Origin: Betaproteobacteria bacterium | GTDB taxonomy: Bacteria > Pseudomonadota > Gammaproteobacteria > Burkholderiales > Usitatibacteraceae | Direction: 5' to 3' | DNA: 37,149 nucleotides | Assembly: GCA_025362135.1 (NCBI GenBank) | Contig: JANYHZ010000057.1 | Coordinates: 1 to 37,149, forward strand | Part shown: positions 30,233 to 33,617 of the stretch, piece after piece | How the letters are laid out: every line of letters starts with the position of its first letter | Numbering within the stretch: position 1 is the stretch's first letter | Translations under genes and position numbers: made by a program | The notes under the pieces: model-generated | What the model was told of the DNA's origin: nothing | Seen by the model: the letters and a program-made list of their open reading frames with translations, nothing else | The model's database searches: none

Positions 30233-30369
30233 GGCAGTTTCCGCGTCAGGTTGATGATCTTCATCTTATCATTGCGATGGGCTACCAGGTTCGCGAACTT
30301 GGCATGACCCTTGCTGAAAGTTCCCGCAATCAAATGAAAAAAAACAGCGCTGCAAACGAGAGGCCGCTC

Positions 30370-31818
30370 ATGGAACTGCGTTACCCACGATCCTTTCTCG
30401 GTTTGCTGGTGGTCGGCTTCGCCATCGTTGCGCTGCCGTTGATTGCAGGGCTGGTGTCGAACGCGTTCTCGATTGAGCGTCTGTCCGAACAGAGCCAGAA
30501 GGCGGTTTTCAATGCCACCGTCGCGACGCAAAATGCCCGGCAATTATCAACTTTGGCGCTTGCGATGGAACGTTCAGCGCGTTTTTATGCCGTTTCTGGA
30601 GACCGCGATTTGGTGGATGCGTACAAGCAGTCACGCGAGAGGTTTCGAAAACTTCTTGGTGAATTTGTCGCCTTACCGCTGGCACCCGAGATGCAGGCTG
30701 CGGCAGACGTAGTTCAGCAAAGGGAGACAAGTATTTTTGCACTGCTCTCCGCAAAGCCGCCGTCGGCAGAACTTGGTCGCCAGTTCGAGCGTGATTTCGC
30801 CGAGCTCTCCGCGCGCTCATCGGCCCTGAACACACTGGCCGATCAATTGATCGAGCAGGAGGTGGCTGCCCTGAAAGCCGCAGCGGCCAAATCACGTAAC
30901 CAGGTCATCTGGCAACTGCTGGCGATGATTCCGTCGGCACTTTTGATGATCGCAGGCTTCACCTATCTGCTGGCGCGGCCGATCCGTGATCTCGACGAAG
31001 CGATCCATCGCCTGGGAGAAGGCAAGCTCGCACAACGCATCCGCGTCGCCGGCCCGCACGACATTGAAATGCTGGGAGAGCAACTCGATTGGTTGAGGCA
31101 GCGCCTGATTTCGCTCGCGGACCAGAAGACGCGTTTTTTTCAGCATGTTTCGCACGAGTTGAAAACGCCGCTGACGGCGTTGCGCGAGGGCTCCGACCTG
31201 TTGGGCGAGGAAGTCATTGGCAAGCTCAACGATGAGCAGCGCGAGGTTGCCCGCATTCTCAAACACAACTCCCTGACGCTGGAGAAGTTGATCCAGGATT
31301 TGTTGACTTATTCACAAGCACAATCTTCGGATCGTCTGGGCAAAAAGACCGCGCTCGATATCCAGCCAGTGCAATTGAGGGATCTCATCGATCACGTGAT
31401 CAACGCACAACGTCTCGCAATCATCGCCAAATCAATCACCGTAAAACGTGAGTGTGAAAAAGTTTCTTTTCAGGGAGATGGGGAAAAATTGCGCGTGGTC
31501 GTCGATAACCTGCTGTCGAATGCAATCAAATATTCTCCGCTGGGCGGCACCATTGTTTTACGCCTTGGCAAACACAAGGAACACGCCGTGATTGAAGTGA
31601 TCGACAATGGGCCCGGCATTTCGATGGAAGATCGTGAACGCATTTTCGACCCGTTTTATCGCAGCAAGAATGCGGCAACGTCCGGCGTCAAAGGCACCGG
31701 GCTCGGGCTGGCGATCGTACGCGACTATGTTGAAATGCATCAGGGCACGGTAAAGGCGATCGCGGCCGCAGGCGCGCACATTCGCGTCATTCTGCCGAAA
31801 TTACCGTTGCCCGCCTAA
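30370..31818 (+). CDS. glrK: Sensor histidine kinase, GlrK/QseE-like
   Basis: Two TMs, HAMP (ARPIRDLDEAIHRLGEGKL), HVSHELKTPLTALREGSDLL, HATPase; directly upstream of a sigma-54 response regulator. Start could be 30277 or 30334. Confidence 0.87.
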   Translation: MELRYPRSFLGLLVVGFAIVALPLIAGLVSNAFSIERLSEQSQKAVFNATVATQNARQLSTLALAMERSARFYAVSGDRDLVDAYKQSRERFRKLLGEFVALPLAPEMQAAADVVQQRETSIFALLSAKPPSAELGRQFERDFAELSARSSALNTLADQLIEQEVAALKAAAAKSRNQVIWQLLAMIPSALLMIAGFTYLLARPIRDLDEAIHRLGEGKLAQRIRVAGPHDIEMLGEQLDWLRQRLISLADQKTRFFQHVSHELKTPLTALREGSDLLGEEVIGKLNDEQREVARILKHNSLTLEKLIQDLLTYSQAQSSDRLGKKTALDIQPVQLRDLIDHVINAQRLAIIAKSITVKRECEKVSFQGDGEKLRVVVDNLLSNAIKYSPLGGTIVLRLGKHKEHAVIEVIDNGPGISMEDRERIFDPFYRSKNAATSGVKGTGLGLAIVRDYVEMHQGTVKAIAAAGAHIRVILPKLPLPA

Positions 31819-31845
31819 TGGATATTTCATGAGACTGCAATCGAC

Positions 31846-33258
31846 ATGGCTACTCTCGCCGACGGGTCTGAAGTGAACAACCCGCAAATGCAAAATCTGC
31901 TGTTGGTCGATGACGACCCCGATCTCCTGAAATTGCTGGCGATTCGCCTGAAAGCGAGCGGATATCGGGCCACCACGGCGATCAACGGTGAACAAGCCCT
32001 GTCGATGATTGCCGCGGAAAGACCGGATCTGGTGATCACGGATCTGCGCATGGCGGGTCTGGATGGAATGGCGCTTTTTCATGAAATTGAGCGCCGCCAT
32101 ACCGGCTTGCCCGTCATCATCCTAACGGCACATGGCACGATCCCGGATGCCGTCGCGGCAACGCGGCAAGGCGTGTTCGGCTACATCACGAAACCATATG
32201 ACGCGAACGAACTACTCGCACAGGTGCGGCGTGCGTTATCGCTGCATGGCGGCGTTGGTGCGTCGAGGGCTGACGCGGGATTGGCATTGAACCGAGCGGA
32301 GGGATCCTGGCGTAGCGAAATTATCACCAGAAGCCCGGCGATGGAGGACCTGCTGTTGCGCGCAGAGCGGATCGCGCAGGGCGATGCGAGCGTGTTGATC
32401 CAGGGTGAAAGTGGAACCGGGAAGGAACTACTGGCACGTGCATTACACCGCGCGAGCCGACGCGCCGAACGGCCGTTCGTTGCGATCAATTGCGGTGCGA
32501 TTCCGGAAGCGCTGCTTGAGTCGGAATTGTTTGGCCACAAAAAAGGCGCGTTTACGGGTGCGACGAGCGATCATCCCGGATTGTTCGTCGAAGCCCATTC
32601 TGGCACGCTGCTGCTGGACGAAATCGGCGATATGCCGATGGCGTTGCAAGTGAAGCTGCTGCGGGTACTCGAAGCACGCGAAGTCCGTGCCGTCGGCTCG
32701 ACCAAGACCATCCCGATTGACGTGCGCGTCATCTCGGCCAGCCACCGCGATTTGAACCAGGCCAAGACCATTGGCTCGTTTCGCGAAGATTTGTACTATC
32801 GACTGAATGTCGTCACGCTCAAGCTGCCCGCATTGCGCGAGCGACGAGAGGACATTCCGTTGCTGCTTTCCTATTTCCTCAAGGAACTCTCAACGCGTTA
32901 CCAAAAAAACGTGAACGCGCTTTCGGATGATGCGCTGGAGATGATGAGTGCGGCTTCGTGGCCCGGCAATATTCGCCAGTTGTACAACGTTGCTGAGCAG
33001 GTGGTGGCGCTCTCTTCAAGCGAAATCGTCTCGACCAAAGTGGTTGAGCACGCCATGCAAGTTGAGATGCAGGGGCTTGACTCATTCGAGGAGGCGCGTC
33101 GCCGATTTGAATACGACTATCTCACCCGTCTGTTGAAGCTGACGCAGGGCAACGTGACGCAAGCGGCGCGGCTGGCGAAACGCAATCGCACCGAGTTTTA
33201 CAAGCTTTTGCAGCGCCATGGCATTGAGGCGGCGCATTTTAAGCCCGCCAACGGTTAA
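31846..33258 (+). CDS. glrR: Sigma-54-dependent response regulator, GlrR/QseF-like
   Basis: Receiver (LLVDDDPDLL..LVITDLRM), AAA+ (GESGTGKELLARALHR, ELFGHKKGAFTGA [GAFTGA]), C-terminal Fis-type HTH (NVTQAARLAKRNRTEFYKLLQRHGI). Confidence 0.92.
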   Translation: MATLADGSEVNNPQMQNLLLVDDDPDLLKLLAIRLKASGYRATTAINGEQALSMIAAERPDLVITDLRMAGLDGMALFHEIERRHTGLPVIILTAHGTIPDAVAATRQGVFGYITKPYDANELLAQVRRALSLHGGVGASRADAGLALNRAEGSWRSEIITRSPAMEDLLLRAERIAQGDASVLIQGESGTGKELLARALHRASRRAERPFVAINCGAIPEALLESELFGHKKGAFTGATSDHPGLFVEAHSGTLLLDEIGDMPMALQVKLLRVLEAREVRAVGSTKTIPIDVRVISASHRDLNQAKTIGSFREDLYYRLNVVTLKLPALRERREDIPLLLSYFLKELSTRYQKNVNALSDDALEMMSAASWPGNIRQLYNVAEQVVALSSSEIVSTKVVEHAMQVEMQGLDSFEEARRRFEYDYLTRLLKLTQGNVTQAARLAKRNRTEFYKLLQRHGIEAAHFKPANG

Positions 33259-33297: not shown

Positions 33298-33315
33298 CGT
33301 CGCCATTTAGAGACA
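33298..33315 (+). promoter_or_regulatory. GlrR-like enhancer site, upstream copy (CGTC-N10-GACA)
   Basis: CGTCGCCATTTAGAGACA; 7/8 match to TGTC-N10-GACA and shares the CCATTT core with the second site. Confidence 0.6.
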
Positions 33316-33361
33316 AGTATTCCTGTTATGAATCATAAACTTAGGGAATTACCTCAATATA

Positions 33362-33379
33362 TGTCTCCATTTGGCGACA
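33362..33379 (+). promoter_or_regulatory. GlrR-like enhancer site (TGTC-N10-GACA)
   Basis: TGTCTCCATTTGGCGACA, exact match to the TGTC-N10-GACA pattern known for enterobacterial GlrR. Confidence 0.72.
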
Positions 33380-33455: not shown

Positions 33456-33471
33456 TGGCACGGCGTTTGCT
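33456..33471 (+). promoter_or_regulatory. Sigma-54 (-24/-12) promoter
   Basis: TGGCACG-GCGT-TTGCT, complete match to TGGCACG-N4-TTGCW; predicted +1 near 33482. Confidence 0.9.
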
Positions 33472-33481
33472 CATATGAAGT

Positions 33482-33617
33482 TGAATGCTTTTGGATCGCC
33501 CTCCCTCCCTGGGCGCTTCGGCGGTTTGGCTAGGTCCCCAAACCCCGAAGGTTCTCCTCCTTAAGCATTCGAGAGTGCGCCTTCAGGGGCGGTCGAAAGA
33601 CCGCCCCTACTTTTTTG
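33482..33617 (+). ncRNA. Predicted sigma-54/GlrR-controlled small RNA with anti-Shine-Dalgarno motif
   Basis: Starts ~12 nt after the sigma-54 -12 element and ends at a strong intrinsic terminator; closing stem GAATGCTT/AAGCATTC, two internal hairpins, unpaired CUCCUCCUU; no credible ORF. Confidence 0.82.
33585..33617 (+). terminator. Rho-independent terminator of the predicted sRNA
   Basis: AGGGGCGGTC-GAAA-GACCGCCCCT followed by ACTTTTTT. Confidence 0.95.

Follow-up and report, generated by a model that had tools for sequence, protein, structure and literature searches.

The envelope-stress response regulator GlrR/QseF is known mainly from enterobacteria, in connection with GlmY and rpoE. 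The QseF/GlrR site in Escherichia coli and Proteus is TGTCN10GACA (PMC8745638), and the activation of glmY is assisted by IHF and occurs via TGTN12ACA sites (PMC6075780). The betaproteobacterial sRNAs S17 and bdhR1 pair with ribosome binding site regions through C/U-rich single-stranded sites (PMC11722255). The open-access literature provided no account of a glrR-adjacent RNA of the type described below, nor of GlrR-controlled sRNAs in betaproteobacteria. In the window, namely, the whole stretch of 37,149 nucleotides of betaproteobacterial DNA analyzed, a -24/-12 promoter is followed by a predicted structured, terminator-ended RNA of ~136 nucleotides without a conserved open reading frame (ORF). 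We consider it highly likely that positions 33481-33616 are a real GlrR-linked sRNA gene. The features of the locus are as follows.

30277..31818, plus strand: glrK/qseE-like sensor kinase gene, upstream neighbor (HAMP, HisKA and HATPase_c domains; upstream of glrR also in relatives)
31846..33258, plus strand: glrR/qseF-like sigma-54 response regulator gene (best NCBIfam model GlrR, NF011695; receiver and Sigma54_activat domains)
33298..33315, plus strand: distal GlrR-type site CGTCGCCATTTAGAGACA, which departs from TGTC-N10-GACA at one position (counterpart in 19/19 relatives, exact or with one mismatch)
33331..33343, plus strand: IHF-like site AATCATAAACTTA, flanked by the two GlrR-type sites and differing from WATCARNNNNTTR at one position
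33362..33379, plus strand: proximal GlrR-type site TGTCTCCATTTGGCGACA, 94 bp ahead of the promoter (mostly ~93 bp in relatives, range 91-95)
33456..33470, plus strand: -24/-12 (sigma-54) promoter TGGCACGGCGTTTGC (same position in 19/19 loci, weaker form in G017)
33481..33616, plus strand: predicted structured sRNA gene, start placed by promoter spacing (fold z = -6; covariation; match of covariance model R1 to 33481-33616)
33497..33515, plus strand: hairpin 1, CGCCC/GGGCG, loop UCCCUCCCU (pairing in 100% of cells; 7 of the 8 core relatives share the loop unchanged)
33516..33550, plus strand: hairpin 2, loop with UAGGUCC (both-sided changes in 8 of 11 pairs, helices 3 and 4)
33554..33560, plus strand: CUCCUCC motif, member of a C-rich, Shine-Dalgarno-complementary set (CCUCC or CUCC here in nearly all copies)
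33568..33583, plus strand: near-invariant linker UUCGAGAGUGCGCCUU preceding the terminator (core GUGCGCCUU identical in 16/16 aligned genomes, including the shortest, ~44-nucleotide form)
33585..33616, plus strand: intrinsic terminator with 10-bp stem, GAAA loop and U tract (terminator scan; covariation alignment)

The minimum-energy fold of positions 33482-33617 has an energy of -66.3 kcal/mol, compared to -44.0 ± 3.7 kcal/mol for dinucleotide shuffles (z = -6.0). An earlier note on this DNA had claimed a closing stem, two hairpins and a strong terminator; all were found where it had placed them and together form exactly this fold, with the terminator hairpin at 33585-33608 and the U tract behind it. 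In the alignment of relatives that the note had suggested, made from the eight closest ones (genera g1 and g3), the stems covary. The structure tested had been taken from the fold of a single sequence among the eight; this choice favors the percentage paired (92.5% of cells) and, less so, the compensatory changes, which were observed on both sides in 17 of 41 pairs (30 both-sided cells). Shuffles gave 6.7 ± 1.8 such pairs, and 0 of 500 reached 17. The covariation score was 0.341 versus 0.05 to 0.085 with a slid partner, and a slide by a single base reduced pairing to ~50%. RNAalifold, applied to the same alignment with no structure supplied, returned nearly the same fold. Because of this conservation and covariation, the structure is not a product of chance, and the compensatory changes in all stems, along with the invariant linker, show that the element has evidently been under selection. 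The upper part is variable, and genera g2 and g4 possess other, strongly different hairpins. Common to all copies is a C-rich single-stranded sequence, followed by UUCRAGAGUGCGCCUU and the terminator; G015 has a short form, and in G025 only ~44 nucleotides are kept, without the C-rich sequence. An own promoter, a covarying structure, an intrinsic terminator and the lack of a conserved ORF place the element among the trans-encoded, terminator-ended bacterial sRNAs.

The full-consensus -24/-12 promoter reported in the earlier note is present, and the exact consensus TGGCACG-GCGT-TTGC has a single match in the whole window, with 4 of 100 shuffles containing one. At 19/19 loci, two TGTC-N10-GACA palindromes, each exact or with one mismatch, are spaced ~62 to 68 bp apart, the proximal one mostly ~93 bp before TGGCA-N7-TGC. 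The sequence AATCA-N5-TT[AG], which is near the IHF consensus, is located between them at 16 of the 19 loci. Within the window, the palindrome with up to one mismatch is unremarkable (13 matches versus 13.0 expected); the weight of the GlrR-type sites is in their conservation and spacing across loci. This architecture points strongly to transcriptional control by GlrR, IHF and sigma-54, so that GlrR very probably switches on the neighboring sRNA gene. The sigma-54-type, GlrR-linked structured sRNA gene proposed in the earlier note therefore stands, and the GlrR-type sites, the IHF-like site and the strict co-occurrence with glrR are added evidence. The regulator itself scored 622.6 bits with the GlrR model, compared to 425 bits for the next model and a model cut-off of 763. 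Two relatives, G010 and G001 (L049, L051), contain between glrK and glrR an ORF of ~200 codons, lipoprotein-like and qseG-like by position, that matched no Pfam or NCBIfam model; in the window this gap spans only 27 bp (31819-31845), and tblastn did not find the ORF there.

The window's GTDB family, a little-studied group of betaproteobacteria, was represented by 28 genomes, among them Betaproteobacteria bacterium GR16-43 (CP019169.1; L045). The element or a degenerate form of it was present directly downstream of glrR in all 19 genomes that contain this gene and absent from the 9 that do not, although many of these genomes are incomplete MAGs and, given their kinship, the counts are not independent events. 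Of the 19, 16 contain the exact 3' motif, G019 has it with one mismatch, and G025 and G026 have degenerate forms. When 61 genomes were searched at the DNA level, 10 relatives matched. In nine of these the match lies immediately after glrR, and in the tenth (L011) it comprises the promoter only; the conservation of promoter and stems downstream of glrR to which the earlier note had looked was thus found. Presence and absence of the sRNA and glrR are mixed inside genera g1, g2 and g4, and their pairing is therefore not one clade-wide event. Covariance model R1, built from the eight closest sequences, matched the g2 and g4 copies at their glrR sites with E values from 3e-6 to 8e-4; among 300 Burkholderiales genomes it detected nothing comparable. 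Its weak matches outside the family were mostly bare terminators by sequence. Sequences outside the family that fitted the linker pattern (L028-L036) were attributed to chance, since the flanks inspected had no promoter, hairpin or glrR context.

Rfam searches, recommended in the earlier note and run at gathering and permissive (E ≤ 10) thresholds, assigned the element to none of the families. The note's suspicion of a "betaproteobacteria toxic small RNA" (RF02278) was not confirmed, and its statement that there is no GlmY-like sequence agrees with the lack of any GlmY or GlmZ match even at E = 10. The best weak match, to anti-hemB (Burkholderia RNA 7, RF02837), was rejected, having 14.3 bits versus a gathering threshold of 49.5 (E = 1.3) and a different context; in both RNAs, a terminator follows a hairpin whose loop is rich in CUCC and includes CCUCCCUG. 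With S17/bdhR1 and RF02278, the element has in common an intrinsic terminator and C/U-rich stretches, here predicted to be mostly single-stranded, that might base-pair close to ribosome binding sites (PMC11722255). The comparison with S17 covered promoter, processing and gene neighborhood: S17 has a sigma-A promoter, is processed by RNase E and lies among other genes.

The sequences themselves show the conservation, structure and promoter architecture of the element and its tie to glrR; transcription, GlrR and IHF binding, Hfq involvement, pairing mode and targets are inferred. The likely reading is a stand-alone trans-acting sRNA that is activated by GlrK/GlrR and represses mRNAs through C-rich pairing, probably aided by Hfq, in an envelope-stress response. 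Phosphorylated GlrR would bind the two TGTC-N10-GACA sites, IHF would bend the DNA between them, and sigma-54 RNA polymerase would start at the -24/-12 element. The resulting RNA would display C-rich loops and the invariant 3' linker ahead of the terminator; its C-rich segments would pair with Shine-Dalgarno regions, most likely repressing the respective mRNAs as part of that response. That the C-rich single-stranded loops (UCCCUCCCU, CUCCUCC) repress by pairing with Shine-Dalgarno regions is a tentative proposal with slightly less than even odds, for which S17 and bdhR1 set a betaproteobacterial precedent (PMC11722255). Complementarity of this sort is common by chance. The C-rich motifs had a mean unpaired probability of 0.64 versus 0.32 for other C residues (pooled data; no difference in G017, G019 and G015). 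In g2 and g4, the unpaired state of the linker is less clear. The exact 11-mer complement of the linker never occurred in a shared translation-start region in 12 genomes, and a recurrent second 11-mer site, aligned in four genomes, was discarded as a target since it reads as coding-sequence interior. A 9-mer search in four genomes, of which most listed sites of two were inspected, turned up neither an orthologous pair nor a start region in common. The linker complement AAGGCGCACTC is found in L168, L171, L176 and L178 inside one conserved, apparently coding region, which probably reflects coding conservation.

The earlier note had taken the RNA for a functional counterpart of GlmY/GlmZ, a view that holds for transcriptional control and finds no support beyond it. 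The regulator family, the TGTC-N10-GACA sites, IHF assistance, the -24/-12 promoter and the linkage to the regulator genes are as for GlmY (PMC6075780, PMC8745638), here as predicted sites. Unlike GlmY, which lies upstream of glrK, the element lies downstream of glrR, and by scan it has no overlapping sigma-70 promoter; it also has no sequence or model similarity to GlmY and no sign of a RapZ/glmS function. That the RNA binds RapZ or activates glmS is thus quite improbable, even though RapZ and GlmS are both encoded in the window's genome. In this genome, its pairing with the glmS leader, the only one analyzed, was no better than with mononucleotide-shuffled leaders. RapZ was matched in 25 of the 28 family genomes, including 9/9 without the sRNA, and was unmatched in G001, G012 and G018, which all carry the sRNA and are 80 to 93% complete; its distribution is not linked to sRNA presence. 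A protein-binding sponge (CsrA/Hfq-type titration) or a ribosome/anti-Shine-Dalgarno mimic, instead of an mRNA-pairing regulator, would be compatible with the repetition of C-rich motifs and with the CCUCCUU of the element in the window's genome, which equals the 16S anti-Shine-Dalgarno core. We consider this unlikely, because the RNA lacks a GGA-loop array such as CsrA sponges have and because the motifs differ in number between genera while the 3' linker stays the same.

A regulatory leader or a small-protein gene is very improbable. Protein genes do occupy the same promoter place in other Burkholderiales, and an 85-amino-acid ATG frame begins at 33485. However, its start codon is missing in G004, G011, G012 and G014, and length differences of 1 to 5 nucleotides between the RNAs shift the frame, in agreement with the earlier note, which had seen no credible ORF. 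Furthermore, the terminator closes the unit, the next gene in the window, iscX, is convergent, and unrelated genes lie downstream in other genera. It is just as improbable that the element is a decayed or non-functional remnant of a protein-coding GlrR target: the variable upper part and the short forms in G015 and G025 would fit decay, but the compensatory changes seen in every stem and the invariance of the linker would not.

A search for the site and promoter pattern in 399 Burkholderiales genomes gave ~120 matches in 90 genomes, and about a tenth as many in the reversed control. We inspected 60 places, picked for good palindromes and hence not a random sample, of which 23 were just downstream of a GlrR homologue (54 to 64% identity). 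At these 23 loci the same promoter precedes protein genes; a script called an ORF with ribosome binding site in most, and for the remainder start codon and frame were read by eye (L115 by likeness to L114). Among the products, judged by reading alone, are BON-domain-like and EF-hand-like proteins as well as small exported ones. Within the window's GTDB family, the same glrR-adjacent place is occupied by the sRNA. The window's genome, which is 86% complete, gave no match to the strict site and promoter pattern other than the one at the sRNA, which may thus be the main output of GlrR there. We consider it rather more probable than not that an undescribed sRNA family took over the regulator-adjacent GlrR output in one betaproteobacterial family, a place from which relatives express periplasmic or other proteins, giving rise to a circuit from GlrR, IHF and sigma-54 to an sRNA that would be independent of GlmY and differ from it in RNA structure and action. 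The control architecture is kept across Burkholderiales, and its output varies: protein genes in some, a non-homologous sRNA in one family. The locus thus offers a natural comparison for the gain of an RNA output by a two-component system, with a concrete, testable promoter and RNA. A second GlrR-type site with a sigma-54 promoter was observed in a family member before a protein-coding gene (G016:C56:82060-82164; L116). In another Burkholderiales family, f25, L122 and L123 harbor such a site and promoter past ~2599 (oriented), not beside glrR. What comes after the promoter at both loci is non-coding, ends in a terminator and has loops very rich in C (CAUCCCCCCC); it may be a second sRNA of the same type, and in L122 it weakly matches SorX in Rfam (23.7 bits versus a cut-off of 46.6).
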